From: Methylovulum sp.
Lineage (GTDB): Bacteria > Pseudomonadota > Gammaproteobacteria > Methylococcales > Methylomonadaceae
Assembly (NCBI GenBank): GCA_028712695.1
Contig: JAQTQZ010000029.1
Span: 1 to 41,137 of the forward strand
DNA length: 41,137 nt
Reading direction: 5' to 3'
Shown: positions 9,828 to 40,901 of the stretch, piece after piece
Layout of the letters: the number at the start of each line of letters is the position of its first letter
Numbering within the stretch: position 1 is the stretch's first letter
Position numbers and translations under genes: made by a program
The notes under the pieces: model-generated
Databases searched by the model: none
Seen by the model: only the letters and a program-made list of their open reading frames with translations
Told to the model about the DNA's origin: nothing

Positions 9828-12800
9828 TTAAGTCAGGCTTTTATGCAAGTCTTGCAGACAGTTTATATTGCCGGCATCCAGCTCACCTAGTGCATAACAG
9901 GCTGCCCTGGCTCCTGCCATTGTTGTGTAATAAGTCACCCGATACTGCAAGGCTTCCCGGCGCATGGTAAACGAATCTGAAATCGCCTTTTTACCTTCGG
10001 TGGTGTTAATGACCAATTGAATCTGGCCGTTTTTAATCATATCGACGGTATTGGGCCGACCTTCATTTACTTTGTACACCACTTCACAGGGTATGCCCGC
10101 CTCTTTTAGAAATCGTGCTGTGCCACCGGTAGCTACGATTTCATATTTTTTATCTACCAGCATTCGCGCTATGTCGGGTGCTTTGGCTTTATCGACATCA
10201 CGGATGCTAATCAGCACTTTGCCGCTATGGTCTAAGTTGATGCCCGCTGCCCGTTGGGATTTGGCGAAGGCTTCACCAAAGGTTTTACCGACGCCCATCA
10301 CTTCCCCGGTTGACTTCATCTCTGGGCCGAGTAATGGATCAACACCTGGAAATTTAACGAAGGGGAACACCGCTTCCTTAACAGAATAGTAAGCGGGGAT
10401 GCGTTCTTCAGTGATACCTTGCTGGGTAAGCGTTTGTCCGACCATCACCCGCGCAGCAATTTTTGCTAAGGGGTAACCTGTCGCTTTAGACACAAAAGGC
10501 GCTGTCCTTGAAGCTCTTGGATTGACTTCCAGCACATAAATATCATTACCCTGTATGGCAAATTGGGTGTTCATCAGGCCTCTTACGCCCAGTGCTTCGG
10601 CCATCTTTGCGACTTGTTCGCGCAGTTGGTCTTGAAGTTCCGGTGCTAAATCATAAGGCGGTAAAGAACATGCCGAGTCACCTGAATGCACACCGGCTTG
10701 CTCGATGTGTTCCATCAGACCGCCAATTAATACGCGTTCGCCATCATAAATCGCATCGACGTCCATTTCCACAGCGTCGTCTAAAAAACGATCCAATAGC
10801 ACAGGCGAATCATTAGATACGCTAACCGCCTCTTTCATATAGCGTTGCAAGCCTTCTTCATTGAAGACGATTTCCATCGCCCGGCCACCGAGCACATAAG
10901 ATGGTCTGACAACTAAGGGATAGCCCAGTTCTTTAGCGGCATTCAGTGCTTGCTCAACAGAACGCGCCGTGGCGTTTGGGGGCTGTTTAAGGTTCAGTCT
11001 TTCCAACAGTTTTTGGAAACGCTCACGGTCTTCAGCCAAATCGATAGAGTCGGGCGAAGTGCCGATAATCGGCACCCCTGCCGCTTCTAGTGCACGTGCG
11101 AGCTTTAAAGGTGTTTGTCCTCCGTACTGGACAATCACGCCTTTAGGTTTTTCCAGATGGACAATTTCGAGCACATCTTCCAGTGTCAACGACTCAAAAT
11201 ATAAGCGGTCAGAGGTGTCAAAATCGGTGGAAACCGTTTCAGGATTACAGTTAATCATGATGGTTTCATAGCCGTCTTCACGTAAGGCGAGGGCGGCATG
11301 GACACAGCAATAATCAAATTCAATGCCTTGGCCAATCCGGTTTGGCCCACCGCCGAGAATAATGATTTTTTCCTTGTCTGAAACGCGGGCTTCGCACTCT
11401 TCTTCATAGGTTGAGTACAGATAAGCCGTATCGGAGGCAAATTCAGCGGCACATGAGTCGATGCGTTTATAGACAGGGCGTATCCCTTGCTTATGACGCA
11501 CGTTACGCACTTCACTTTCGGAAGTGTCGAGCAATTTGGCCAGTCTGATATCGGAGAAGCCTTTACGTTTTAGTTTATAAAGTTCGCCCTCTTTTAATGT
11601 AGACAGCGTTTTAGTTGACAGTGAATTCTCGGTAATAACTAAATCATGCACTTGTGCTAAAAACCAAGGGTCGATTTTGCAAACGCTATGCACTTCCTCA
11701 ATGGACATGCCGCTACGGAACGCATCGGCAACATAACGCAAACGGTCTGGCCCTGGGTGGCGCATTTCACGCTGCATTCTTTCTTGGGCGTCTTCGGTGT
11801 TTAGATCGATGATTTCATCAAGGCCACTGATGCCGATTTCCAAACCGCGCAACGCTTTTTGCAAAGATTCCTGAAAAGTCCGGCCTATCGCCATGACTTC
11901 ACCGACGGATTTCATTTGCGTTGTCAGCCGGTCATCCGCTTGCGGAAATTTTTCGAACGTAAAACGCGGGATTTTAGTGACTACATAATCGATTGAGGGC
12001 TCAAACGACGCAGGGGTTGAGCCCCCCGTAATTTCATTTTTTAATTCGTCCAGTGTGTAGCCCACCGCCAGCTTTGCCGCCACTTTAGCAATGGGGAAAC
12101 CGGTCGCCTTAGATGCAAGCGCTGATGAACGCGATACCCTAGGGTTCATTTCGATAACAATCATCCGGCCATTTTCGGGGTTAATCGCCACCTGAACGTT
12201 TGAACCGCCGGTATCGACGCCAATTTCCCGCAATACGGCCAGTGAGACATTACGCAAGATTTGATATTCTTTGTCCGTCAGTGTTTGTGCGGGCGCGACG
12301 GTAATCGAATCGCCGGTATGCACACCCATAGGATCAAAGTTTTCTATCGAACAAACGATAATGCAGTTGTCTTTGGAATCGCGGACAACTTCCATTTCAT
12401 ATTCTTTCCAACCGAGCACGGATTCCTCAATCAACAGCTCATTAGTCGGCGACAAATCCAAGCCGCGTTCACAAATTTCAATGAACTCTTCTTTGTTGTA
12501 GGCAATACCGCCACCGCTGCCACCCATTGTGAATGAAGGGCGGATGACTGTGGGATAACCCACTTCCTTTTGGGCCGATAAGGCTTCTTCTATAGTATGT
12601 GCGGTTTTTGACCGGGCCACATCAAAACCTATTTTGCGCATCGCCTGATTGAACAGTTCACGGTCTTCGGCTTTGTTGATGGCTTCCTTGGTGGCGCCGA
12701 TCATTTCGACGTTATATTTTTCCAGAACCCCATTTGCATCGAGTGCCAATGCGCAATTCAATGCGGTTTGTCCGCCCATCGTCGGTAAAATGGCGTCTGG

Positions 12801-27238: not shown

Positions 27239-28168
27239 CTAAACGGCTTTGTGTTGCAGCACCATTGCAACGGCTGCAGCACGCGTTGTCACACCTAGTT
27301 TTTCGTAGATATGTTCCAGATGTTTATTGACTGTCCGGTGGCTACTGTCCAATATCAGACCGACTTCTTTATTGGTTTTGCCGCGAGAAATCCACATGAG
27401 TATTTCAGCTTCCCGAAAAGTGAGGCCCATTGATGCTTTTAGCGATTCCAAATTCCAAGTGGTTGGGTATTCCTTCAGTAGCAGCAAGTATTCACCGGTG
27501 TTTTGGCAAGCCGACATTTGGATTGTAAAGCCGGTGCTGCTGCGATATTCATCGCTGTAAGGGGTGTCCGCCAGCATATTTTTTTTGCACCAGTCCAGTA
27601 TGGGCTTTGGTAACAGCGCACCTACTGCAGGCGTATCTGTCAGTGCGGAATGTTGTATAAAGCTTGAAAGTGTTTCTAGTGCGGCCGCTGTTAACCAAAT
27701 GATACGGCCAGACCTGTCTATTGTTAACGCGGGGAACGGGCTGTGGTTCAACGCCGTTTCTGTGCGTTGCCGAACCCGTGCTTGGTTAAGATGCACTTCT
27801 ATTCTGGCCAATACTTCCGGCGGACGTATTGGTTTGACGATGTAATCCAAACCGCCTTCATCAAAACCACGCAAAAGATTTTCCAGCTCATTCAAACCGG
27901 TCATAAACAACACCGGAATAGCGGCGGTTGTTAAGTCGGCTTTAAGGCGGCGGCAGGTTTCAAAACCATCTATGCCAGGCATCATCACATCCATCAAAAT
28001 AATATCTGGTTTTAAGTAGCCAATTTGTTCAATCGCCGCTAACCCATCCGTTGCAACCAATACCCGGTAACCGGCTTCCGATAGGGTGTCGGATAACAAC
28101 GCCAGATTAGCCGGGGTGTCATCAACAATCATGATGGTGCCATTTGCCGCAGAATTTATAATATCCAT
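27239..28168 (-). CDS. LuxR-type response regulator with internal PAS-like domain
   Basis: A 309-residue regulator. The receiver (about 10-130) has Asp16/Asp17, phospho-acceptor Asp60 (ILMDVMMPGIDG) and Lys112 (YIVKPIRPPE). A central stretch starting HSPFPALTIDRSGRIIWLTA resembles a PAS fold. The C-terminus is a LuxR helix-turn-helix (LTFREAEILMWISRGKTNKE, later SSHRTVNKHLEHIYEKLGV with RAAA). It lies 39 bp behind the permease-kinase fusion, so the two form a cognate pair, and the divergent porin-urt genes are the most likely targets. The operator is not known. Confidence 0.9.
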   Translation of the reverse strand: MDIINSAANGTIMIVDDTPANLALLSDTLSEAGYRVLVATDGLAAIEQIGYLKPDIILMDVMMPGIDGFETCRRLKADLTTAAIPVLFMTGLNELENLLRGFDEGGLDYIVKPIRPPEVLARIEVHLNQARVRQRTETALNHSPFPALTIDRSGRIIWLTAAALETLSSFIQHSALTDTPAVGALLPKPILDWCKKNMLADTPYSDEYRSSTGFTIQMSACQNTGEYLLLLKEYPTTWNLESLKASMGLTFREAEILMWISRGKTNKEVGLILDSSHRTVNKHLEHIYEKLGVTTRAAAVAMVLQHKAV

Positions 28169-28207: not shown

Positions 28208-31200
28208 TTATGCTAATAATTTTCTAATTTCGGCCAGCTGGAATCCATTGGTCAAGGTTTTAATTCGCCGAGCTAACGGCAGGTATTCCGGGTTATTTTC
28301 GACTAGCTCATCAAATTTTTTGTTCAAGCCCAACAAGTCGCCAATTCTCACCAATACATTCAATTCTTGGAGCACCGGTGCAGGGGGGAGCTTCAGCACG
28401 GCATCATCTACCGTGTCGCTAGAGACATCCGGCCCATCCTCTTGGCAAACCCAAGTCAGGCCGATGTGCAGTTTCAGCGCATTCAACAAGTCTTGGACTT
28501 GGATGGGTTTTACCAAAAAATCATTGCAGCCCGCATTGATGGCGCTGATACGGTCAGATGGATAGGCGTTGGCGCTCAGCACAATGATTGGCATCAACAA
28601 ACCTTGTTCACGCAACCGGATAGCGGTTTCTGAGCCATCCATAGTGGGCATGGCTAAATCCAGCAACACCAAATCAGGACAATAGCGTGCGGCTTGCAGT
28701 AAACAATCTGCCCCGGAGCTGGCGGTATCCGTCACAAAACCTAAGGGGGAGAGAATGGACGTCATCAATTCACGGTGTTCTTGTTGATCATCAACAATCA
28801 GGATTTTTTGCCGTCGCCCGCGATAACCGGTGATGTTGTTCTGTTGCACCTGTTCTGGAATGGCGCCCAAGTTGGGCAAAAATAGCCGCACGGTAAAAGT
28901 AGAACCTTTACCCAGTGTGCTACTGACGGCTAAATCACCCCCCATAATTTCGGCGAGAATCTTGCTGATGGTCAGGCCTAGGCCACTGCCCGATATGGCG
29001 TTGCCCGTCGCGGTATCCAAACGCGTAAAAGGTTGGAAAATAGTTTGCAATTGTTCTGGCGCGATACCGGGGCCTGTGTCAGTCAGTTGGAACGTTGCAA
29101 CACCACTGCTGTAACCGATGCGCAGTAAAACCTCGCCTGTTTGGGTGAATTTGATGGCATTGCTTAATATGTTCATCAAAATTTGCCCGACCCGCTTCTC
29201 ATCGGCACGGACGCATTGCGGGAGCGTGTTGAGCATTTGGCAGCGGAATGACAAGCCTTTGTCTGTTGCCTGGGCTTTGTAGATACACACTAAATGTTCG
29301 ATAAGGCCATGAAAATTAACAGGCTTATAGTTGAATTCAAACTTGCACGCTTCAATGCGGGCAATGTCCAGTATATCTTCAATCAGTGCCGACAAATGTT
29401 CGCTGCTGCGTTTGAGCGTTTCCACCGCTTGCCGCCGGTGTTCGGGGATGGCCGGGTCTTTGTGCAAGAGGTAGGAATAGCCGATGATGCTGTTCAGGGG
29501 GGTGCGGATTTCGTGGCTCATATTGCTCAAAAACCGGCTTTTTGCACTGTTTGCCGAATCGGCCATTTTGATGGCTTGTTCCAGTTTGGCATCGGTTTTT
29601 TTATGTTCTTCGATTTCCGTGAGCAACAATTGCGTTTGTTTGCCCGTTTCTTCATGCGCGACCCGGCGGCTTTCGTCATTTAAAATTAGCCACCAAGTGC
29701 ATAAGCCGATAAACACGAGCAGTGAGGTGTAGACCTTGACGAAATTGCCCAGCAGCAATTGGAAAGTGTGCAGCGAAGCTTCGGCGGCAAGCAAATCCTG
29801 ATAATAAATGATGCCGATAAAAATACTGGTCAGCACCGACAGGAAACCGAACAACAAAGTGAAGCGTAACAGCCGCAAACGCGCCGTCAGGTTCATGCGT
29901 GACGGCATCAACCGTTTCGCGAACAGTTCCAGATAATCATCAAGCCGCGCTCCTGGTTTGCAAGCGTCCAAACAGCGGGCGTCCAACGTGCAGCATAGCG
30001 AGCAAATACTGCCGTTGTAGGCGGGGCAATAGGCGATGTCTTCATGCTCGAATTCGTTTTCACAAATCACGCAGCGGTTATGGCTATGGCGGTTTTTTTT
30101 GTTGCGGTCACGCGCGAGATAATGTTTGTGCCCGGTGAAAAGCGCGATGGTTGGCACGAGGAGGAAAGCCAAGCCCAAGGAAATGAACGCTGAAAATGCG
30201 CGGGCATAGTCACCAAACAACCCGATGTAGGAAAGTATCGACACGACGGAGGCAACCAGTGTTGCGATAATGCCGACGGGGTTAAGATCGGGTAGATACG
30301 CGCGTTTGAATTCGATGATGTTCGGGCTGAGTTTTAACGGCTTGTTAATCATCAGCTCCGCCGCGACCACGCTGATCCAGGCGATTGACACGTTTGAAAA
30401 CAGCCCCAAGACTTTCTCCAAGGCGCCAAACACGCCAAATTCCATCAGCAATAAGGCAATCAAGACGTTGAACAACAACCAGATGACCCGCCCAGGATGG
30501 CTGTGGGTGATGCGCGAGAAAAAATTCGACCACGCCAACGAACCCGCATAGGCATTGGTGACGTTGATTTTGAGCTGGCTGATGACGACAAACAAAGTGG
30601 TCGCCGCCAAGGCCCATTTAGGATCTGGCAATAATTCCTTATAGGCAATCAAATACATCTGCGTCGGCTCATGCGCATGTTCGGCGGAAATGCCGTGGCG
30701 CATGGCAAGGTGCGCCAGCAGCGCGCCGCCCAACTGCCGGAGCATCCCAAACAGTATCCAGCCTGGCCCCGCGCTGATGGTTGCCAGCCACCAGCGGATT
30801 TTATTCTGTTCGGTTTTTTCCGGCATAAAGCGCAGAAAATCGACTTGTTCGCCGATTTGCGCGACCATCGAAAACGCCACAGTCGTGGCGCTGCCGAACA
30901 GCAACCAGTCAAAACCTTCGCCTGTACCGGCAATCCAGAAAAAAGTCTGCGCGGTCAGCAGCGCGTCTTGCTCGTGCATGACCACGGCGATATACGGGGC
31001 GATGAGCAAGATCAACCAGACTGGCTGCGTCCACAGCTGCATCCGGCTGATGGTGGTGATGCCGAAGGTCACCAGTGGTATGACCGTGACCGCGCTGATG
31101 ACATGGGCGAGGGCGATGGGGATTTGGAAATACAATTCCAAGGCCAGCGACATGATTGAGGCTTCCAGCGCAAAAAGCGTGAAGGTGAACGAGGCGTAAA

Positions 31201-31570
31201 TCAGTGACGTGACAGTCGAGCCAATATAGCCGAAACCTGCGCTGCGCGTCAGCAAGTCGATGTCGATATTGTAACGGGCGGCGTAATAGCTGATCGGGAA
31301 ACTGGTGATGAAAATGATGAGGCCGACAATCAAAATCGCCCAAAACGCATTGGTGAAACCGTAATGGATCGCTAAAAAACCGCCGATGGCTTCCAGCACC
31401 AAAAACGACGTCGAGCCGAATGCGGTGTTGGCGACTTGGAATTCCGTCCATTTACGGAAACTGCGCGGGGCAAAGCGCAAGGCATAGTCTTCCAGGCTTT
31501 CGTTGGCAACCCATGAATTGTAATCGCGGCGGATTGTGGAAATATTTTGGTAAATGGTTTTGTTTTTCAT
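28208..31570 (-). CDS. NCS1-permease / histidine kinase / receiver fusion sensor
   Basis: A 1120-residue protein. Residues about 1-480 resemble an NCS1 (purine-cytosine/hydantoin) permease with roughly twelve helices (WTEFQVANTAFGSTSFLVLE, LKINVTNAYAGSLAWSNFF). Residues 500-537 carry eight cysteines (CVICENE, AYCPAYNGSICSLCC, ARCLDAC). Two further helices (about 566-635) and a coiled coil lead to the kinase: His686 in SHEIRTPL, Asn804 in NILSNAIKF, DTGPGIAP (831-838) and GSGLGL (861-866). A receiver follows with Asp971 (LLDLAMPTMDG) and Lys1021. The last ~55 residues are helical. Permease-fused kinases are known for other transporter folds (CbrA carries an SLC5 domain). The ligand here is unknown; the urt genes alongside suggest urea or a related compound. 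Confidence 0.92.
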   Translation of the reverse strand: MKNKTIYQNISTIRRDYNSWVANESLEDYALRFAPRSFRKWTEFQVANTAFGSTSFLVLEAIGGFLAIHYGFTNAFWAILIVGLIIFITSFPISYYAARYNIDIDLLTRSAGFGYIGSTVTSLIYASFTFTLFALEASIMSLALELYFQIPIALAHVISAVTVIPLVTFGITTISRMQLWTQPVWLILLIAPYIAVVMHEQDALLTAQTFFWIAGTGEGFDWLLFGSATTVAFSMVAQIGEQVDFLRFMPEKTEQNKIRWWLATISAGPGWILFGMLRQLGGALLAHLAMRHGISAEHAHEPTQMYLIAYKELLPDPKWALAATTLFVVISQLKINVTNAYAGSLAWSNFFSRITHSHPGRVIWLLFNVLIALLLMEFGVFGALEKVLGLFSNVSIAWISVVAAELMINKPLKLSPNIIEFKRAYLPDLNPVGIIATLVASVVSILSYIGLFGDYARAFSAFISLGLAFLLVPTIALFTGHKHYLARDRNKKNRHSHNRCVICENEFEHEDIAYCPAYNGSICSLCCTLDARCLDACKPGARLDDYLELFAKRLMPSRMNLTARLRLLRFTLLFGFLSVLTSIFIGIIYYQDLLAAEASLHTFQLLLGNFVKVYTSLLVFIGLCTWWLILNDESRRVAHEETGKQTQLLLTEIEEHKKTDAKLEQAIKMADSANSAKSRFLSNMSHEIRTPLNSIIGYSYLLHKDPAIPEHRRQAVETLKRSSEHLSALIEDILDIARIEACKFEFNYKPVNFHGLIEHLVCIYKAQATDKGLSFRCQMLNTLPQCVRADEKRVGQILMNILSNAIKFTQTGEVLLRIGYSSGVATFQLTDTGPGIAPEQLQTIFQPFTRLDTATGNAISGSGLGLTISKILAEIMGGDLAVSSTLGKGSTFTVRLFLPNLGAIPEQVQQNNITGYRGRRQKILIVDDQQEHRELMTSILSPLGFVTDTASSGADCLLQAARYCPDLVLLDLAMPTMDGSETAIRLREQGLLMPIIVLSANAYPSDRISAINAGCNDFLVKPIQVQDLLNALKLHIGLTWVCQEDGPDVSSDTVDDAVLKLPPAPVLQELNVLVRIGDLLGLNKKFDELVENNPEYLPLARRIKTLTNGFQLAEIRKLLA

Positions 31571-31694: not shown

Positions 31695-32465
31695 TTACCG
31701 CCGCTCATGGCCAAATTTTAAAATTAAAGGCGAGCCTTGGTTATGGATGATGATTTGTTTGCGTTCTTCATCCGGTACAACTATCGGTTTGGCTGGGGTT
31801 ATGGCATCCGAGCCGCTGTCAAGCGTGGGTTTTTGCTGCGGTACCGGAACCGTTTCTATTTGCACTGAAGGCATCCACGTCGGTTTGCGGATGGCTTCAG
31901 CCGGTTGCCCAGGATCGTTTGGATTGGCGGCTACAGAGGGTGGCAAAAATTTTAAGCTGTCGAGCAAATCAAAACAAACGGTGCTGATATTTTCCACTAA
32001 CGTGTCTTGCAATTTGTGGGTATTGACAGGTGTGGCCGGTGCGCTAAACGTCATGGTCAATCCGGCCTGTTGCGCCGGATTTGAGTTGGCGTTCAAACGG
32101 CATTGGATAGGGATGACATTGGCTTTTTGGAAGCCCAGTGCGCGTGGGTCAGAGTTGCCGGAAGAGAAAGAAAACCCCACCGGTGTTTCGGCGTTTTTGA
32201 TTTCGCCAATGTCGACGGTCATCGTATGCGTGTAAGTTTGCCCATTTTCAGCATGAAGCGGAAACCGCCATTGGCTAAGGTTGCCAATGACAGCCTCGTG
32301 AAAATCCTTGGCATTGGAGAAGCCCAAATGTGCGAGTGGTTGCGGGGTGATTTTCAAGTCAATCGCTTTGATTGCTTGGCTATCCAGCGGTTGTGCCATG
32401 CTGGCGTTGCTACTGAATAGCAGCCAGATGACAGGCAGAAAGGTTATCGGTGCAGGTATCTTCAT
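31695..32465 (-). CDS. exported protein of unknown function
   Basis: A 256-residue protein starting at ATG 32465; an upstream frame extension lacks the signal peptide context. Residues 1-24 form a signal peptide ending ASMA. The mature part has a single pair of cysteines and sequences such as THTMTVDIGEIKNAETPVGF and ENISTVCFDLLDSLKFLPPS. A Pro-rich stretch near the C-terminus contains PVPQQKP. I recognise no family. It precedes the permease-kinase fusion on the same strand (124 bp apart) and is divergent from the porin, so it may be part of the sensory or uptake system in the periplasm. Confidence 0.65.
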   Translation of the reverse strand: MKIPAPITFLPVIWLLFSSNASMAQPLDSQAIKAIDLKITPQPLAHLGFSNAKDFHEAVIGNLSQWRFPLHAENGQTYTHTMTVDIGEIKNAETPVGFSFSSGNSDPRALGFQKANVIPIQCRLNANSNPAQQAGLTMTFSAPATPVNTHKLQDTLVENISTVCFDLLDSLKFLPPSVAANPNDPGQPAEAIRKPTWMPSVQIETVPVPQQKPTLDSGSDAITPAKPIVVPDEERKQIIIHNQGSPLILKFGHERR

Positions 32466-32830
32466 GTACTGGGTTCCTATGGAGAATGTTTTATGGTTTC
32501 GTGGGACGGACGTTTTAGGCAGCCGGTTTGTCTTCCGCTTGCCCGAACCTGGAAAAGTAGTGGTGAATGCCGCTTGCTGCCACATAAATAATAACGATAA
32601 AACGCAATGGGGGAGGGTTGAATTTACACGTCCCTAGCCCTCATCTGACTAGCCCCTACTTTAAAAACCCCCCGGCCTTTTCGATATACGTCATTTAACT
32701 CATGAGTCAGATGACGCATTGAGAAATATCCATGCAAGCCAAATAATCCCCACCAGCCGCAACGCATGGCTGCATCAAACGAGGTTTGATGTATCAATTA
32801 ACGCAAGCTTATTGATCTAAGGGGCTTAAC
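32466..32830. promoter_or_regulatory. divergent control region between sensor genes and porin-urt genes
   Basis: No gene in these 365 bp. They hold a perfect 10-bp inverted repeat TCATCTGACT (32641-32650) / AGTCAGATGA (32705-32714), G-rich and C-rich tracts facing each other around 32609-32640, and the palindrome CATCAAAC-GAG-GTTTGATG at 32773-32791. These are candidate operators for the neighbouring LuxR-type regulator. No sigma-54 promoter with the GG-N10-GC spacing was found in front of the porin. Confidence 0.5.
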
Positions 32831-34033
32831 ATGATTAATCCAATCGGGCATTCAGCAAAAAACCACAGTTTCCAGTGGTTGCCGACTATGGCCTTAATGG
32901 CTTTGGTGGCGGGCCATTCATCCGTAGCCGAAGCTGGGGCGACGTTTAAAATTGACGATACCAAATGGGTGAGTATCGGGGCAGGTTTAAGAAGTAGCTT
33001 CACTGCCAACGAAAACGCCGCGCCCAATGGCACGGACTACAGCAACAATTTCAACTTGGATAATATCCGTTTGTATATGAACGGACAAATCCACAAATAC
33101 ATTAAAGTCGAATTCAACACCGATTGCCAAACCTGTAGCAATGGCGGCGAAGTCAGGGTGTTGGACGCTATCGGTAAATTTGAAATCAATCCTTACGCCA
33201 ATTTATGGATAGGCCGGATGCTGGTTCCAGCCGAACGCCGCGAAATGAACGGGCCTTTTTACAGCGCTATCTACAACGTCTTCGCCAACGGCACGCCGTT
33301 TGAACCGGCCGACCAAAACCTGACAATCAAGACTGACGGCACGTCGGCTGGCTCGTATGGCCGTGATGACGGTGCGACATTCTGGGGTGCAGCACTGGAC
33401 GGGCGTTTGCAATATGCCTTCGGTTTTTTCCGTGGCTTAAGAAACGGGGCCAACCAAGATGGCAATGTCCTGTTTTCACAACGGGTGGCCTATAACTTCT
33501 GGGAAGTGGAGAAAAACCCCGGTTACTACACATCCGGCACTTACTACGGCACCGGCGGCGATATTTTAACCGTTGCCGCATCGAATATTTATCAGAAACA
33601 AGGCGTAGGCACGCTGGCTAATCCCGGCAATTTCCGTGGCACGTCAGTTGATGTGTTGATGGAAAAAGTGTTGCCCGGCAATGGTGTCGTGACACTGAAT
33701 GGCGAATACAAAAACTACGGGGTGGATGGCAACAAACTCCCTGTGCCTTCAGCGCCTGGCCCGGCAGGTAGCGGCAGCTTTGGCCTGTTCCAAGGCAACG
33801 CGATTGATGTCAGCGCCATGTACTTGTTCCCGCAGAAAGTCGGTTACGGCAAAATCCAACCCTATGGACGCTATGTCAATAACATGGCAATCCACAGCCC
33901 TGACCAAGATGTGTTTGAAGGCGGCATGAACTACATCATCGACGGTCACAACGCCCGCGTTTCTTTAAGCTACCAACGCTATCTCGCTGCCGACCTGAAC
34001 GGCATGACCCTCGGTTTCCAATGGCAAATCTAA
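32831..34033 (+). CDS. outer-membrane porin of the urea uptake cluster
   Basis: A 400-residue protein with a signal peptide (about 36 residues, ending AEA) and alternating aromatic beta-strands, ending in MTLGFQWQI. NFNLDNIRLYMNGQIHKYIK, VEFNTDCQ and LWIGRMLVPAERREMNGPFY look like porins that accompany urtA genes in proteobacteria. It lies 26 bp upstream of urtA on the same strand and presumably lets urea or short amides across the outer membrane. AAGGGG precedes the ATG. Selectivity cannot be read from sequence. Confidence 0.82.
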   Translation: MINPIGHSAKNHSFQWLPTMALMALVAGHSSVAEAGATFKIDDTKWVSIGAGLRSSFTANENAAPNGTDYSNNFNLDNIRLYMNGQIHKYIKVEFNTDCQTCSNGGEVRVLDAIGKFEINPYANLWIGRMLVPAERREMNGPFYSAIYNVFANGTPFEPADQNLTIKTDGTSAGSYGRDDGATFWGAALDGRLQYAFGFFRGLRNGANQDGNVLFSQRVAYNFWEVEKNPGYYTSGTYYGTGGDILTVAASNIYQKQGVGTLANPGNFRGTSVDVLMEKVLPGNGVVTLNGEYKNYGVDGNKLPVPSAPGPAGSGSFGLFQGNAIDVSAMYLFPQKVGYGKIQPYGRYVNNMAIHSPDQDVFEGGMNYIIDGHNARVSLSYQRYLAADLNGMTLGFQWQI

Positions 34034-34059: not shown

Positions 34060-35352
34060 ATGAAAAATTATCTGCAAGCCTGTAAAAAATTGGCGGTGAC
34101 CGTTGCGGTTTCTGCCTTAATGTTCACCAGCGCACAAGCCGAAGAGACCATTAAAGTCGGCGTGTTGCATTCTTTGTCCGGCACGATGGCGATCAGTGAA
34201 ACCACACTGAAAGACACCATGTTGATGTTGATCGACGAGCAAAATAAAAAAGGTGGTTTGCTCGGCAAAAAACTCGAAGCGGTCGTGGTTGACCCTGCGT
34301 CCAACTGGCCTTTGTTTGCGGAAAAAGCCCGTGAGTTGTTGACCAAGGATAAGGTGTCGGCAATTTTTGGTTGCTGGACTTCCGTATCACGTAAATCGGT
34401 GCTGCCTGTCATTGAGGAGCTGAACGGCATTCTCTTCTACCCCGTGCAATACGAAGGTGAAGAATCCTCGAAAAACGTTTTTTACACGGGTGCGGCCCCT
34501 AACCAACAAGCCATCCCAGCCGTTGATTATTTGATGAATGATTTGGGTGTCAAACGTTGGGTGTTGGCAGGGACTGATTATGTCTATCCACGCACCACCA
34601 ACAAAATCTTGGAAGCCTATTTGAAATCCAAAAAGGTCAACAAGAAAGACATCATGATCAACTACACGCCCTTCGGTCATTCCGACTGGCAAAGCATTGT
34701 TGCCGACATCAAAAAATTCGGTTCGGCAGGTAAGAAAACCGCTGTGGTGTCCACCATCAACGGCGATGCTAACGTCCCGTTCTACAAAGAATTGGGCAAC
34801 CAAGGCATATCGGCGGAAAAAATCCCCGTTATGGCTTTCTCAGTCGGTGAAGAGGAATTGTCCGGTATCGACACCAAACCGCTGGTCGGTCATCTGGCGG
34901 CATGGAATTATTTCATGAGCGTTGACACCACCAAAAACGCGGCCTTCATCAAAGAATGGCATGACTATACCAAAAACCCGAAACGCGTCACTAACGACCC
35001 GATGGAAGCGCATTACATCGGCTTCAATATGTGGGTGAAAGCGGTGGAAAAAGCCGGTACGACTGACCCGGACGCCGTGCAAAAAGCCATCATCGGTGTG
35101 GAATATCCTAACCTGACTGGTGGTATGGCGAAAATGCTGCCCAACCACCATATCAGCAAACCTGTTTTGATTGGCGAAATTCAAGATGACGGCCAATTCG
35201 TCACCGTTTGGCAAACCAACAAACTGGTTGATGGCGATGCCTGGTCGGATTATTTGAAAGAAAGCAAACCCATCATTGCCGATTGGACCCCACCGATCAA
35301 CTGCGGTAACTACAACACTAAAACCAAAAAGTGTTCTGGTCAAAACTATTGA
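34060..35352 (+). CDS. urtA: urea ABC transporter substrate-binding protein
   Basis: A 430-residue periplasmic protein with a 27-residue signal peptide ending AQA. IKVGVLHSLSGTMAISETTL, DPASNWPLFAEKARELL, VSAIFGCWTSVSRKSVLPV, LFYPVQYEGEESSKNVFYTG and AAPNQQAIPAVDYLM are UrtA hallmarks; the last blocks hold the urea pocket. FmdD amide-binding proteins are relatives, so short amides remain possible ligands. AGGAG precedes ATG 34060. A palindromic repeat unit separates it from urtB, which may allow higher expression of urtA than of the membrane genes. Confidence 0.96.
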   Translation: MKNYLQACKKLAVTVAVSALMFTSAQAEETIKVGVLHSLSGTMAISETTLKDTMLMLIDEQNKKGGLLGKKLEAVVVDPASNWPLFAEKARELLTKDKVSAIFGCWTSVSRKSVLPVIEELNGILFYPVQYEGEESSKNVFYTGAAPNQQAIPAVDYLMNDLGVKRWVLAGTDYVYPRTTNKILEAYLKSKKVNKKDIMINYTPFGHSDWQSIVADIKKFGSAGKKTAVVSTINGDANVPFYKELGNQGISAEKIPVMAFSVGEEELSGIDTKPLVGHLAAWNYFMSVDTTKNAAFIKEWHDYTKNPKRVTNDPMEAHYIGFNMWVKAVEKAGTTDPDAVQKAIIGVEYPNLTGGMAKMLPNHHISKPVLIGEIQDDGQFVTVWQTNKLVDGDAWSDYLKESKPIIADWTPPINCGNYNTKTKKCSGQNY

Positions 35353-35573: not shown

Positions 35574-37220
35574 ATGACCATCTCCCCGTTAACGCGCCGC
35601 TATCCTTTAATCGCGCTGCTGATGCTGGTATTTTCGCTAGCGGCGCACAGTGGCGAGGCTCCTGAGTCACAGCCTTGGCTGGACGCATTGGACACCCTCA
35701 AGAAAGGCTCCATGCCGGCGCGTGAAAAAGCCATCCTGCAGCTTGCCGAAATCAAAGATGCCCACAATCTGGCGATTTTACAGGCCTTGCTTGACGGCAA
35801 ACTTTACCTTACCAAGACCGATGCCAAACTCGTCATCGGCACCGACAACCATCAAGGTTTTGACATCAGCAATGCCATCAATGGCGCCTCTTTAGGCGTG
35901 GTCGAGCATGATGCCTTAAGCAAAATCAATCTGACCAACAAAATGCGCGGCACGCTCCGCAAAATCATCGGCGAATTGGAACTCAGCGCAGATGACCCAA
36001 AAGTGCGGCTGGCGGCGGTCAAGGCCATGGCAAAGGATGCCGATGAAAAAGCCTTGGCCTTATTACGTGAGCGCGGTGGGCTAGAACAGGACGAAGCGGT
36101 ACGCGCCGCCATTAAATTGACCTTGTTATTGCAAGACATGGACAGCGAAGACAAAGGCGTGCGCATCAAGGCGATTGAAGGCGTGAAAGGTTTCGATAGC
36201 CAAGAAGCCGCCAATCGCCTAAACGCAATGGTTGAAAAAGATGAAAACGGCGAATTTATGGAGCCTGACGGCGACATCCGCGATCTCGCCAAAGCCGCGC
36301 TTATCAATATCAACAGCCGTTTGCAACTATACAGCTCGATTGAAACCGTGTTTTTCGGCCTCAGCTTAGGCGCGGTTTTGGTGTTGTCCGCCATCGGCTT
36401 GGCGATCACCTTTGGGGTAATGGGGGTCATCAATATGGCGCACGGCGAGCTAATGATGCTGGGCGCATACACCACTTACGTCATGCAGCAACTCATGCCC
36501 AACTATTTGGGTTGGTCGATCATCCTGTCCATCCCCGCCGCGTTTGTCATTTCCGCGTTGGTCGGCATTGCCATCGAGCGTGGCATTATCCGCTTCCTCT
36601 ACGGACGGCCTTTAGAAACCTTGCTGGCGACTTTTGGCGTGAGCCTGATCTTGCAACAAAGCGTGCGCTCCATTTTCTCCCCGCTCAACCGCAGTGTCGC
36701 CACGCCGGAATGGATGAGCGGCTCATGGCAGATCAATGACTTTTTGTCGCTGACCTGGAACCGCTTTTACATCCTGGTGTTTTGTTTGTTGGTGTTTGTG
36801 TTGCTGCTGCAAATCCTCAAACGCACCCGCTTAGGCCTTGAGGTCCGCGCCGTCGCGCAAAACCGCAAAATGGCAAAAGCGATGGGCATCCCCACCGCCC
36901 GCGTCGATGCGATGACCTTTGGTTTAGGTTCGGGTATTGCCGGTGTTGCGGGTGTGGCGTTAAGCCAAATCACCAATGTCGGGCCTAATTTAGGCCAAGC
37001 CTATATCGTCGATTCGTTCATGGTCGTGGTGTTTGGCGGTGTCGGCAATTTGTTGGGCACCTTAGTGGCGGGGTTCTCACTAGGCATTGCCAACAAGTTT
37101 TTGGAACCGTTCGCTGGCGCGGTGTTGGCGAAGATTCTGGTGCTGGTGTTCATCATTTTATTTATCCAAAAACGCCCCCGTGGCTTGTTTCCGCAAAAGG
37201 GCAGGGCGGCGGATTCTTGA
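35574..37220 (+). CDS. urtB: urea ABC transporter permease UrtB
   Basis: A 548-residue inner-membrane protein. After a signal-like N-terminus, residues about 25-255 form a soluble helical, HEAT-like domain typical of proteobacterial UrtB. Eight or so membrane helices follow, with LAITFGVMGVINMAHGELMM and LGAYTTYV, IAIERGIIRFLYGRPLETLL, AVAQNRKMAKAMGIPTARVD and VDSFMVVVFGGVGNLLGTLV. UrtB pairs with UrtC to form the channel. AAGGAA precedes ATG 35574. The gene is flanked on both sides by palindromic repeat units. Confidence 0.96.
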   Translation: MTISPLTRRYPLIALLMLVFSLAAHSGEAPESQPWLDALDTLKKGSMPAREKAILQLAEIKDAHNLAILQALLDGKLYLTKTDAKLVIGTDNHQGFDISNAINGASLGVVEHDALSKINLTNKMRGTLRKIIGELELSADDPKVRLAAVKAMAKDADEKALALLRERGGLEQDEAVRAAIKLTLLLQDMDSEDKGVRIKAIEGVKGFDSQEAANRLNAMVEKDENGEFMEPDGDIRDLAKAALININSRLQLYSSIETVFFGLSLGAVLVLSAIGLAITFGVMGVINMAHGELMMLGAYTTYVMQQLMPNYLGWSIILSIPAAFVISALVGIAIERGIIRFLYGRPLETLLATFGVSLILQQSVRSIFSPLNRSVATPEWMSGSWQINDFLSLTWNRFYILVFCLLVFVLLLQILKRTRLGLEVRAVAQNRKMAKAMGIPTARVDAMTFGLGSGIAGVAGVALSQITNVGPNLGQAYIVDSFMVVVFGGVGNLLGTLVAGFSLGIANKFLEPFAGAVLAKILVLVFIILFIQKRPRGLFPQKGRAADS

Positions 37221-37257: not shown

Positions 37258-37384
37258 CTCGTTCCCAAGCTCCAGCTTGGGAACGCAGTACGGGAAGCTC
37301 TTGCTTCCAGAATGATTAGGACGGGAAAGATAGGAAGCTAGAGCTTCCAAAACCGCATTCCCAAGCTGGAGCTTGGGAACGAGC
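37258..37384. repeat. palindromic repeat unit between urtB and urtC
   Basis: Same architecture as 35408-35518: an outer palindrome CTCGTTCCCAAGC...TTGGGAACG at the left, the inverted TTCCCAAGCTGGAGCTTGGG with AACGAG at the right (to 37384), and shorter palindromes with GGAAGC arms between. Its right edge reaches to within 15 bp of the urtC start codon. Confidence 0.9.
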
Positions 37385-37399
37385 GTAAAAGGTTACAAA

Positions 37400-38494
37400 A
37401 TGAAACTCCTGACACTCGCAACCCAAGACAAAACCTGCACCACGGTGCTGATGCTGTTGGCGGCGGTCACCGTCGTCATCCCGCTGTGCAATGTGCTGAC
37501 TGCCGTCGATTCGCCGCTGCATTTTTCCGCCTATACCGTCTCGCTGGTCGGCAAATATCTGACGTTTGCGCTACTGGGCATGTCGTTGGATTTGGTCTGG
37601 GGCTATTGCGGCATTCTGGCATTGGGTCATGGTGCATTTTTCGCTTTAGGCGGTTATGCAATGGGCATGTATCTGATGCGCCAAATCGGCACACGCGGCG
37701 TTTATGGCGACCCGTTGTTACCGGATTTTATGATTTTCCTGAACTGGAAAGAACTGCCGTGGTACTGGTTTGGCTTTGATAACTTTGGCTTTGCACTGCT
37801 CATGGTTGTGCTTGCCCCTGGCGCGTTGGCGTTTGTGTTCGGCTGGTTGGCGTTCCGCTCCCGCGTCACGGGTGTGTATTTGTCGATCATTACCCAAGCC
37901 TTGACTTACGCACTGTTGCTGGCGTTCTTCCGCAATGAGATGGGCTTCGGTGGCAACAACGGGCTGACTGATTTTAAAGACATCCTCGGCTTTAATATCC
38001 AATCCGAAAACGTCCGTTCCATGCTGCTGTTTTTGTCGGGTTCGGCGTTAATCATCTCATTCCTGCTCTGCCGTTGGATAGCGGGCACTAAATTAGGCCG
38101 TGTGGTCACTGCCGTCCGGGATCAAGAATCCCGTGTCCGCTTCCTAGGCTATCGTGTCGAAATGTTCAAGCTGTGGATTTTCGTGTTCGCCGCGATGCTT
38201 GCCGGCGTCGCCGGCGCTTTGTATGTGCCGCAAGTCGGCATCATCAACCCCAGCGAATTTACCCCGCTCAACTCCTTGGAAATTGTCGTCTGGGTGGCAA
38301 TGGGCGGACGCGGCACCTTATACGGGGCAATTATCGGCGCGGTAGTGGTCAATTACAGCAAAACCGTGTTGACCGGACTCATGCCGGATGCGTGGTTGTT
38401 TATTCTGGGCAGCTTGTTCGTTGTCATCACCGTGCTGCTGCCGGACGGTATCGTCGGCCTGATGCGGCGTAATATAAGGGGTAAACAAGTATGA
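37400..38494 (+). CDS. urtC: urea ABC transporter permease UrtC
   Basis: A 364-residue membrane protein with about ten helices. ALLGMSLDLVWGYCGILALG with HGAFFALGGYAMGMYLMR, FFRNEMGFGGNNGLTDFKDI, AVRDQESRVRFLGY and IVVWVAMGGRGTLYGAIIGA are UrtC blocks. ATG 37400 is preferred over an upstream TTG that lies within the palindromic repeat. The stop overlaps the urtD start (ATGA), indicating translational coupling. Confidence 0.96.
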   Translation: MKLLTLATQDKTCTTVLMLLAAVTVVIPLCNVLTAVDSPLHFSAYTVSLVGKYLTFALLGMSLDLVWGYCGILALGHGAFFALGGYAMGMYLMRQIGTRGVYGDPLLPDFMIFLNWKELPWYWFGFDNFGFALLMVVLAPGALAFVFGWLAFRSRVTGVYLSIITQALTYALLLAFFRNEMGFGGNNGLTDFKDILGFNIQSENVRSMLLFLSGSALIISFLLCRWIAGTKLGRVVTAVRDQESRVRFLGYRVEMFKLWIFVFAAMLAGVAGALYVPQVGIINPSEFTPLNSLEIVVWVAMGGRGTLYGAIIGAVVVNYSKTVLTGLMPDAWLFILGSLFVVITVLLPDGIVGLMRRNIRGKQV

Positions 38495-39309
38495 ATAGCT
38501 TTGCGGAAAATCTGTTTAATGAAGATGACAAAGTCAGTAGCTTGGTAGTGGAAGGAAAAGTCGATACCCGCCACGGCCCCATTTTGTATATGGAGGATGT
38601 GAGTGTCAGTTTTGACGGCTTTAAGGCATTGAATAAGCTGTCTTTATTTATAGATGCTGGCGAATTGCGGTGCATGATCGGCCCTAACGGCGCGGGCAAA
38701 ACCACAATGATGGATGTGATTACCGGCAAAACCAAACCCGATACCGGATCGGTGTTTTTCGGGCAAACCATTGATTTGTTGAAAATGGACGAACCCGCAA
38801 TTGCCCAAGCGGGCATCTGCCGGAAATTCCAAAAACCCAGCGTTTTTGATGCCTTGTCGGTATTTGAAAACTTGGAACTGGCCTTAAAAACCAACAAAGG
38901 CGCGTGGAACACTTTATTTTTCCGCCTTAACAGCGAACAGAGCGACCGCATCGGCGATGTGATGGAAACGGTTGGCTTAAGTGCGTTGGCGCATTCCCGC
39001 GCGGGCATCCTCTCGCACGGGCAAAAGCAATGGCTGGAAATTGGCATGTTATTGATGCAAGAGCCCAAAGTCATGCTGGTCGATGAACCTATCGCCGGTA
39101 TGACCCATCAGGAAATTGAACGCACCGCCGAATTGTTGTTATCGCTACAAGGCGAAAGGTCATTGGTCGTTGTCGAGCATGATATGGAGTTCGTCCGCTC
39201 AATCGCGCAAAAAGTCACCGTCCTGCATGAGGGCGGTGTCTTGACCGAAGGCACAATGGATGAAGTGCAAAACGACCCGCGTGTCATTCAAGTGTATTTG
39301 GGGGGCTGA
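38491..39309 (+). CDS. urtD: urea ABC transporter ATPase UrtD
   Basis: A 272-residue ATPase with Walker A IGPNGAGKTTMMD (about residue 68), signature LSHGQKQWLEIGMLL, Walker B VMLVDEPIAGM and H-loop VVEHDMEFV. Residues 1-25 form an extension before the core YMEDVSVSFDGFKAL. LSHGQKQWLEIGML is the particular signature variant of UrtD. It overlaps urtC by 4 bp and urtE by 1 bp. Confidence 0.96.
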   Translation: MNSFAENLFNEDDKVSSLVVEGKVDTRHGPILYMEDVSVSFDGFKALNKLSLFIDAGELRCMIGPNGAGKTTMMDVITGKTKPDTGSVFFGQTIDLLKMDEPAIAQAGICRKFQKPSVFDALSVFENLELALKTNKGAWNTLFFRLNSEQSDRIGDVMETVGLSALAHSRAGILSHGQKQWLEIGMLLMQEPKVMLVDEPIAGMTHQEIERTAELLLSLQGERSLVVVEHDMEFVRSIAQKVTVLHEGGVLTEGTMDEVQNDPRVIQVYLGG

Positions 39310-40091
39310 TGCTAAAAATTAACCAATTGCAACAATACTACGGCGAAAGCCACACCTTATGGGATTTCAATTTGGAGGTGCCCGAAGGCGCGTGTGTCTG
39401 TCTGATGGGGCGTAACGGCGTGGGCAAAACCACCTTGCTGAAAGCTATCATGGGCTTGATTCCGGTCAGGGAAGGCAGCATCACGATGGACGGCGAACCG
39501 CTCGCCGACGGTAAAGCCGAAAAACGCGCCGAGATGGGTATTGGTTATGTCCCGCAAGGCCGCGAGATTTTTCCGCTGTTGACTGTGGAAGAAAATCTCA
39601 AAACCGGATTACGCGCCGCCAGCAAGCACGGCATCAAAAAAGTCCCCGACGCTATCTACGAAATTTTCCCCGTGTTAAAACAAATGCTCAGACGGCGCGG
39701 CGGCGACTTGTCCGGCGGTCAGCAACAGCAATTGGCGATAGGCCGGGCTTTGGTGCTTAACCCTCGGCTATTGATTTTGGACGAACCCACCGAAGGCATC
39801 CAGCCGAACATCGTCAGCGAAATAGGCGATGTCATCATTCGCCTTAACCGTTCACGCGGCACCCCGCTAACCATGCCAAAACCCAACCCAAACGCCTTAG
39901 GCGAAGTGCATGAGGCCATCCACAAAATCAACCAAGAACTCGGCGTGACCGTGTTGTTGGTCGAGCAAAAACTGCCGTTTGCCAGAAAAGTCGCTGACCG
40001 GTTTTGTATCATGGACAGAGGGCGCACCGTAGCCATAGGTGATATGGAGGAATTGTCCGAAGGCATGGTGAAGCAATATTTGACGGTTTGA
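39309..40091 (+). CDS. urtE: urea ABC transporter ATPase UrtE with unusual insertion
   Basis: A 260-residue ATPase, about 30 longer than usual (about 230). Walker A is GRNGVGKTT (35-43), the signature LSGGQQQQLAIGRAL, Walker B LLILDEPTEGIQPNIV. Between IGDVIIRLN (ending at 180) and QELGVTVLLVEQKLPFARK (from 208) lies an extra segment, about 181-207, containing GTPLTMPKPNPNALGEVHEA. The helix after it (EVHEAIHKIN) resembles the one before it. The frame stays open, so the protein should be made. The ATG overlaps the urtD stop (TGATG). Confidence 0.94.
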   Translation: MLKINQLQQYYGESHTLWDFNLEVPEGACVCLMGRNGVGKTTLLKAIMGLIPVREGSITMDGEPLADGKAEKRAEMGIGYVPQGREIFPLLTVEENLKTGLRAASKHGIKKVPDAIYEIFPVLKQMLRRRGGDLSGGQQQQLAIGRALVLNPRLLILDEPTEGIQPNIVSEIGDVIIRLNRSRGTPLTMPKPNPNALGEVHEAIHKINQELGVTVLLVEQKLPFARKVADRFCIMDRGRTVAIGDMEELSEGMVKQYLTV

Positions 40092-40313: not shown

Positions 40314-40901
40314 ATGAAAACAAAATCACTTATCTTATCCGCCATCCTATTAAGCCTCGCCACACTACCTGCCCATGCCCATACCGGCATCGGTACAGTC
40401 CACGGCTTGCTGGATGGCCTTGTGCATCCCCTAGTCGGCATCGACCACTTGCTGGTCATGCTCGCCGTCGGCCTATGGGCGGCGATGCGCGGCGGCAAAT
40501 CGTCATGGCTATTGCCGCTGGCGTTTTTGACCGCAATGGGCGCTGGCGCTGGGTTGTCCTCACTAGGCATCACCATCACAGCGGCAGAAACCTGGGTCGC
40601 ATGTTCAGTCGTGGCGGCAGGCGTGTTGGTGTGGCGTAACACGCGCATGTCATCGGCATTGGCAGTTGCGTTGGTGGCAGTTTTCGCCCTCGCCCACGGC
40701 TATGTCCATGCTTTGGAATTGACAGACAGTGCCGATGCCTTGGCGTATTCAGCAGGATTTCTGCTAACCACGGCGGTGTTGCATGGCTTGGGTTTGGCAG
40801 TTGGCTTATTGGCGGCGGCTAGGGTGAAAATGCTGGGTGCAGGCTTGGGCTTGGTTTGTGCGTTGGTGGGGGTGGGGGTGGGGCTGTTGGTTGGGGTTTG
40901 A
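40314..40901 (+). CDS. HupE/UreJ family membrane protein
   Basis: A 195-residue protein with a cleavable signal (ending AHA, about residue 22) and six further hydrophobic helices. The family signature lies after the signal: HTGIG, then HGLLDGLVHPLVGIDHLLVM, whose His and Asp residues are thought to bind metal. HupE/UreJ proteins are linked to nickel supply for hydrogenase or urease. Here the urea transporter upstream points to urease (UreJ-like), although no urease gene is in the window. A short frame overlaps its stop codon. Confidence 0.88.
   Translation: MKTKSLILSAILLSLATLPAHAHTGIGTVHGLLDGLVHPLVGIDHLLVMLAVGLWAAMRGGKSSWLLPLAFLTAMGAGAGLSSLGITITAAETWVACSVVAAGVLVWRNTRMSSALAVALVAVFALAHGYVHALELTDSADALAYSAGFLLTTAVLHGLGLAVGLLAAARVKMLGAGLGLVCALVGVGVGLLVGV

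Follow-up and report, generated by a model that had tools for sequence, protein, structure and literature searches.

A permease-headed histidine kinase beside urtABCDE in Methylovulum: a probable sensor of urea and related small carboxamides

What does a histidine kinase with a permease-like head sense, and which genes does it control, when it is encoded beside a urea transporter? The question is raised by a 41,137-bp stretch of DNA from Methylovulum sp. (assembly GCA_028712695.1, contig JAQTQZ010000029.1, positions 1-41,137; hereafter the window), in which a hybrid kinase and its response regulator lie near a porin-urtABCDE cluster. The original prediction, made from the sequence alone, proposed that an NCS1-type permease part binds or transports urea, or a related compound such as allantoin or hydantoin, and thereby induces uptake. 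In the computational analysis reported here, protein architecture, residue conservation, gene linkage and a shared predicted operator were determined, and together they indicate that the pair probably forms a two-component system that responds to urea and related small carboxamides and that in this methane-eating host would control porin-urtABCDE.

The kinase consists, in order, of 12 helices, an eight-cysteine cluster, two further helices, a HisKA-HATPase module and a receiver. Hydropathy analysis resolved twelve peaks between residues 50 and 479 and a further pair (570-588, 605-623); a weak extra peak at 864-882 falls within the ATPase domain. Pfam placed HisKA at residues 676-741, HATPase_c at 790-898 and Response_reg at 923-1032. 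Across 156 aligned full-length kinases, the cysteines 500, 503, 515, 523, 526, 527, 533 and 537 were each 100% conserved, as was the phospho-acceptor His686, and the receiver Asp971 was conserved in 99%. Four of the eight cysteines (CxxC...CSLC) are retained in L124 and L129, two homologues of the permease part that stand alone. The regulator has Response_reg at residues 12-123 and GerE at 248-303, so that HisKA, HATPase, receiver, conserved His and Asp and an adjoining REC-GerE regulator, the marks of a hybrid two-component kinase, are all present. Open reading frame, Pfam, hydropathy and conservation thus agree with the permease-cysteine cluster-two helices-kinase-receiver protein originally described and with its LuxR-type partner directly after it on the same strand; the strand, which had been left unstated, is the minus strand. 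Among 54 loci of a sample drawn across the phylum, a regulator homologue directly follows the kinase in 52, and the two loci without it (L210, L212) encode kinases that lack the receiver.

The permease-like input domain was compared with transporter families by profile alignment (hhalign), using an NCS1 profile of 5 sequences and an SLC5 profile of 13 sequences. The input-domain profile (86 sequences) matched NCS1 over 406 columns (Prob 99.0, E 4.7e-18) and SLC5 with Prob 1.3, and its hydropathy gives the 12 helices expected of an NCS1 member. The homologue L124 (43% identical) matched PF02133 with 31.9 bits over residues 36-438 (cut-off 23.5); of four other homologues scanned with Pfam, three gave no match and one a chance zinc-ribbon match. 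In the kinase itself, no SSF (SLC5) match was given by Pfam, residues 1-675 matched no Pfam family, STAC included, and residues 1-660 no Pfam or NCBIfam model above cut-off; the best 25 of 157 NCBIfam matches all fell in the kinase part. PDB sequence searches with the permease part returned nothing, save one chance match to the cysteine stretch (E 1.8). On these sequence comparisons the input domain is of the NCS1 type and not SLC5, and the NCS1 assignment of the original prediction holds by the profile comparison and by one homologue above the PF02133 cut-off.

The input domain was found in 18 of 369 genomes of a class sample, in 52 of the 398 phylum-sample genomes and in 539 plasmid records, 342 of them from Klebsiella; 80 Methylococcales loci were kept. 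The closest named homologue among the scanned genome contigs belongs to Methylovulum miyakonense (94% across the input domain). The phylum sample gave 58 matching places, from which 56 loci were taken after removal of the window's own and that of genome G107. In 20-kb stretches (about 10 kb each way), urtA, ureC/ureG or fmdA lay near 53 of the 56 loci. None of 20 control windows held such a gene; 18 of these controls were taken from genomes of the phylum sample and two from genomes of the class sample (G249, G358). The three unlinked loci are L192 and L221, at contig ends, and L222, a 26% homologue; in L192 the start of a urtA is visible before the contig ends. Among the 18 domain-bearing class-sample genomes, UrtA was present in 14 (86/369 overall; hypergeometric p 8e-7) and UreC in 16 (85/369 overall; p 2e-9), both values being uncorrected for kinship. 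Annotated kinase loci held urease with urt, urt with formamidase and amidase, or urease with a more distant urtA. With 53 of 56 loci linked against none of the controls, the scatter of homologues without any tie to urea or amide genes that would have refuted the prediction was not observed. The search for homologues and for co-occurrence with urt or urease, suggested with the original prediction, therefore bears out the link to urea genes and extends it to short-chain amides.

A shared operator was sought in 63 divergent kinase/target regions from other genomes, reduced to 56 by similarity, with the window excluded. The dyad TACG-N8-CGTA was present in 38 of these regions, whereas the commonest dyad in five Markov-shuffled sets reached 12-15. 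Of the 56 regions, 40 held a match to the consensus ATACGTCA-NN-TGACGTAT at no fewer than 12 of its 16 positions, versus 0.8% of shuffles. NarL/FixJ-type operators are inverted heptamers in a 7-2-7 layout starting with TAC, and the palindrome consensus TACGTCA-NN-TGACGTA fits such inverted heptamers. When the window was searched with a matrix drawn from the better of these sites, the two best matches were tandem sites in the 245-bp gap between a 296-residue gene and the porin gene (2 found versus 0.05 expected by chance in 41 kb); with up to 3 mismatches, the whole genome (3.79 Mb) held one further match, inside an open reading frame that looks transposase-like by eye. The shared operator thus ties the regulator to porin-urt. 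As the 296-residue gene separates kinase and porin, the divergent promoter region is 32586-32830: porin-urtABCDE is indeed divergent, as first described, but it is not the immediate neighbour of the kinase.

Best matrix scores ranged from 3.4 to 10.5 in the 20 control windows and exceeded 10.5 in 47 of 54 phylum-sample kinase loci, many of which had contributed to the matrix. In Methylococcales, 50 loci include a porin together with the DNA ahead of it, and in 47 of them the best site lay within 300 bp 5' of the porin (related loci, not independent); in the remaining L070, L077 and L090 it lay 5' of an fmd operon, with an equally good second site 5' of the porin in L070 and L090. Two loci unused for the matrix also carried sites: in L105 these precede ureD and urtA, and in L112 the site lies between the kinase and an operon of a stand-alone permease and fmdA. 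At urt loci unlinked to the kinase, a site scoring above 14 was found in 3 of 7 kinase-bearing genomes versus 0 of 13 kinase-free genomes (best 9.6; three of these stretches, in G001, G021 and G068, are short at contig ends). Of the four kinase-bearing genomes without such a site, two are cut by contig ends (G032, G052), one has a weak variant and one has none. In G128 and G197 an operator precedes the unlinked urt although the kinase loci themselves (L111 and L117, respectively) are without urt, ure or fmd. Homologues that are not directly followed by a NarL-type partner (L119, L122, L124, L129, L210, L212) had no site above 12; the highest site score in L124, 11.9, is away from its own permease and urease genes.

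A promoter-like element, TTGAGA-17-AATAAT, abuts the second operator; it is only suggestive, because 11 promoter-like sites were found overall versus 14.1 expected by chance. In the 47 of 56 regions with an operator score of at least 14, a -10-like element toward the target lay at offset 31 from the operator centre in 6 and at offset 53 in 8 (mean 0.48 per offset; the next offset, with 5, was 6, at the operator edge), and toward the kinase 5 of 47 had one at offset 31. The AATAAT at offset 31 in the window is as would be expected for an activator contacting the -35 region, which is suggestive. A sigma-54 (NtrC-type) promoter was also considered and was not supported (31 sites found versus 35 expected by chance).

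Several observations weigh against a carboxamide sensor with its own operator. PF02133 gave no match in the kinase at E<=1, nor at E<=0.1 in any of 54 aligned members, and Pfam detected no HPt domain between the receiver of the kinase and the regulator. Under strict cut-offs, 10 of 19 class-sample loci were linked to urea or amide genes; L115, whose urt set is 41-51% identical, is scored negative under these cut-offs, and the 19 include L107 and L108 (overlapping, from one genome), the short contigs L120 and L125, the stand-alone L124 and two fusions from G137. Of the 37 Methylococcales loci flanked by 9 kb or more on each side, 25 were linked and 12 had no urt, ure or fmd nearby. Such genes are likewise lacking near L110, L111, L117 and L121, where an RND pump, a D-Ala ligase-like gene and a nucleoside transporter are among the neighbours scanned, and in the stretches of L119 and L122, which gave no urt, urease or fmd match. 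The best operator score was below 10, within the control range, in 7 of 54 phylum-sample loci, and the second urt of G138 has no operator. Finally, a reversed control pattern had 10 matches in the genome versus 3 for the motif, and it is therefore the position of the operators, not their number, that is telling.

The relatives of the permease part that occur outside this kinase bear on its ligand. The stand-alone homologues of L129 and L112 adjoin fmdA/fmdB and that of L124 adjoins urease; a urea or amide substrate therefore fits. A quick tree was built from 108 of 171 sequences, with only 21, hand-picked, from Methylococcales and with L136, L221 and L125 excluded. On it the amide label changed 12 times (shuffled mean 36.1) and the urea label 16 times (shuffled 30.6): the neighbourhood is clustered on the tree yet has switched repeatedly. 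No highly conserved input-domain residue separated hand-chosen urea (6) from amide (11) clades; the top 25 separating columns were mostly variable loop or terminal positions (for example 198, 206, 311 and 491), and the helix columns 83, 407 and 449 gave no clean split. One receptor for the group common to urea and small amides is the simplest reading of this pattern, and a common indirect signal is its main rival.

That rival supposes that the kinase does control the urt and fmd operons, and that the permease domain senses some other nitrogen-linked signal (ammonium, cyanate, a purine breakdown product or a membrane gradient), with urea only as the downstream target. The absence of a conserved core residue that tells urea- from amide-neighbour kinases is what a common signal predicts, but recognition of the H2N-C=O group that urea and amides have in common would account for the conserved core just as well. 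In a chained sequence alignment through the profile match, Lys334 falls at the position of Mhp1 Ala309, which we take to be a sodium-site position; because of this replacement, coupling may differ from that of ordinary NCS1 carriers, and this too is in its favour. Lys334 and Glu136, the latter at the place of Mhp1 Gln121, are conserved in at least 97% of 86 rows. Against an indirect signal, the stand-alone homologues themselves adjoin urease or formamidase genes, and we regard it as improbable.

The same alignment bears on ureides. If the permease part sensed allantoin- or hydantoin-type rings, as classical NCS1 carriers do, urea uptake would follow from ureide breakdown; the NCS1 relation, the NCBI label 'allantoin permease' on some homologues, oxoprolinase/hydantoinase-type genes 2-6 kb past the regulator in L135 (with similar matches in L194) and distant homologues (27-30% identity) that neighbour such genes or a set resembling allophanate hydrolase all speak for this. 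The comparison with the Mhp1 pocket, proposed at the outset and made here by alignment, does not: Trp117 and Trp220, presumably the hydantoin-stacking tryptophans, correspond to Leu132 and Val236, and with Gln121, presumably a pocket residue, also replaced, the Mhp1-like hydantoin pocket (Trp117, Gln121, Trp220) is not matched by the input domain in this alignment. Because both stacking positions are changed, allantoin and hydantoin are disfavoured as ligands. The annotated kinase loci that were viewed adjoin formamidase, amidase, urt or urease, L135 with its urtABCDE included, and held no gene named allantoinase, which leaves a ureide sensor very unlikely. No more credible is an ordinary neighbour effect, in which the pair is a general regulator that chances to be carried along with plasmid and chromosomal nitrogen islands. 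Many homologues are plasmid-borne and their urea or amide neighbourhood has switched repeatedly, as this would have it; against it, the known neighbourhoods are mostly urea or amide genes, which none of the control windows had, and the same operator marks urea and amide operons, some unlinked urt loci and the ureD of L105.

A sensor of urea or a small carboxamide is thus the most likely reading of the input domain by sequence criteria. In its own genome urea would most likely be the ligand, because a urease is present (the sole alpha-subunit match lies on another contig, C34:37562-39256) and no FmdA/AmdA-type formamidase was matched, nitrilase-type amidases not having been searched for. From this we infer the following course: the NCS1-type domain would bind, and maybe transport, the ligand and change shape; the change would pass via the cysteine module and the two additional helices and reach the histidine kinase. 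The kinase would phosphorylate the NarL-type regulator, either directly or by way of the kinase's own receiver. The phosphorylated regulator would then bind the tandem sites and activate porin-urtABCDE, and probably also its own operon; elsewhere the same sensor would serve formamide/acetamide operons. The original working model accordingly keeps its NCS1-type input and its urea-gene linkage, and gains a shared predicted operator at porin-urt, with allantoin and hydantoin disfavoured; it is largely supported.

The features of the window are collected in Table 1. The 296-residue protein has relatives in many Methylococcales kinase loci, mostly 32-53% identical, and matched no Pfam or NCBIfam family above cut-off; by eye it has an internal signal peptide-like stretch, and it is possibly an accessory of the sensor system. 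No urease alpha gene stands alongside the urt genes of the window.

Table 1. Predicted features of the kinase-porin-urt region, in window coordinates
Feature	Position	Strand	Basis or remark
Partner response regulator, 309 aa; receiver (Asp60) and NarL/LuxR-type DNA-binding domain	27239..28168	-	Pfam
Permease-fused hybrid histidine kinase, 1120 aa	28208..31570	-	ATG start; open reading frame, translation, Pfam, homologues
Receiver domain, Asp971	28475..28804	-	Pfam; conservation
HisKA and HATPase_c, His686	28877..29545	-	Pfam; conservation
Two further hydrophobic helices, residues 570-623	29702..29863	-	Hydropathy
Eight-cysteine cluster, residues 500-537, zinc-ribbon-like	29960..30073	-	Conservation in 156 kinases
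NCS1-type 12-helix domain, residues 1-485	30116..31570	-	Hydropathy; hhalign
Uncharacterised 296-aa protein	31695..32585	-	5' of kinase, same strand; recurs in kinase loci
Predicted regulator operator 1, ATACGTCATTTAACTCAT	32686..32703		Top match in window; matrix built without window
Predicted regulator operator 2, tandem, ATGAGTCAGATGACGCAT	32702..32719		Second-best window match, same matrix
Promoter-like TTGAGA-17-AATAAT	32719..32747	+	Abuts operator 2; AATAAT 31 bp from operator centre
Porin gene	32831..34033	+	Named from initial sequence reading; in many loci of Methylococcales lies 5' of urtA
urtA, urea ABC transporter binding protein	34060..35352	+	TIGR03407, 576.5 bits (cut-off 492.75)
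urtB	35574..37220	+	50% identity to annotated urtB of L126
urtC	37373..38494	+	67% identity to annotated urtC of L126
urtD	38491..39309	+	61% identity to annotated urtD of L126
urtE	39309..40091	+	47% identity to annotated urtE of L126
HupE/UreJ-like gene	40314..40901	+	39% identity to annotated HupE/UreJ of L133 urease operon

Further arrangements were seen among the homologues. L127 and L128, on Klebsiella plasmids, carry the kinase, urtABCDE and formamidase, one of them also an aliphatic amidase, and look like amide-utilisation islands. In L108, L109 and similar loci, transporters named urtABCDE lie beside formamidase and constitute a distinct group, with about 40% identity to the window UrtA, that probably carries amides; several of these formamidase-side transporters still pass the urea model TIGR03407. 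In L112 a stand-alone homologue (10712-12307, +) is divergent from the kinase; fmdA, fmdB and a nitrilase-like gene accompany it, and a near-perfect operator lies between. This homologue is a candidate formamide carrier that would replace the ABC transporter. In G137 the permease module is fused to PAS-GGDEF-EAL, domains of cyclic di-GMP turnover, and to PAS-PAS-kinase-receiver (L119 6749-10420, -; L122 8923-12741, +). We lean slightly towards a broader view, in which the NCS1-derived module (12 helices and cysteine cluster) would be a portable carboxamide receptor for urea, formamide and acetamide across Pseudomonadota, occurring as a stand-alone carrier, as the head of NarL-partnered kinases and on other outputs (PAS-GGDEF-EAL, PAS-PAS-kinase, receiverless kinase), with one operator code that switches urea and amide operons, even within one genome.

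Transporter-kinase fusions as such are known: CbrA, CrbS, RpuS and the Amt type have been described. In a two-component pair of this kind CbrB, the partner of CbrA, is a sigma-54 type regulator, whereas that of the window is NarL-type. CbrA and CrbS are SLC5-STAC-histidine kinase 'transceptors' (PMC13022988, PMC5715377, PMC7096432, PMC9100948). They resemble the window kinase in fusing a transporter domain to a histidine kinase that is paired with a regulator of nutrient uptake or use; they differ in that the window kinase has an NCS1-type domain and, where CbrA has STAC, the cysteine module and two helices. In Kuenenia, an ammonium sensor histidine kinase of the Amt type likewise uses a nitrogen-compound transporter domain as kinase input (PMC5764959), but of an unrelated family and with another ligand. 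The NCS1 carriers Mhp1, CodB and MetT share with the input domain the profile and the helix number; the latter differs in its fusion to signalling domains, the replaced Mhp1 tryptophans and the conserved Glu136 and Lys334. The substrates characterised for bacterial NCS1 carriers are for the most part heterocycles, with metformin as an exception (PMC13390362).

On the target side, fmdCABDEF of Methylophilus methylotrophus encodes, like the window's porin-urtABCDE, a porin and a binding-protein-dependent transporter, there for urea and short-chain amides and induced by formamide and urea; in the passages on it the regulator is called a putative positive regulator only, and no sensor kinase is mentioned (PMC10781810). 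Two publications hold possibly homologous pairs, without interpretation in the passages concerned: a 1131-residue kinase and a 308-residue receiver protein beside UrtA in Dechloromonas (PMC2907700, Table 4), and a two-component pair of the LuxR family that adjoins a third urtABCDE operon, near fmdA by locus number (PMC13296017). The literature within coverage, outside which most subscription journals lie, yielded CbrA and CrbS and neither an NCS1-headed kinase nor a urea-sensing kinase, in agreement with the view that SLC5-fused kinases are known and an NCS1-type input coupled to urea is little described.

General nitrogen control is the usual explanation for the regulation of urea uptake and, to our knowledge, how extracellular urea or formamide is sensed has not been established for most bacteria. 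If the proposal is correct, the permease-headed kinase would represent a type of nitrogen sensor that is widespread yet hitherto undescribed, in which a dedicated transporter-type receptor gives urt, urease and formamidase operons a specific regulator. NCS1 would then join the transporter folds that serve as kinase inputs, and the operator named here would make the proposal directly testable.

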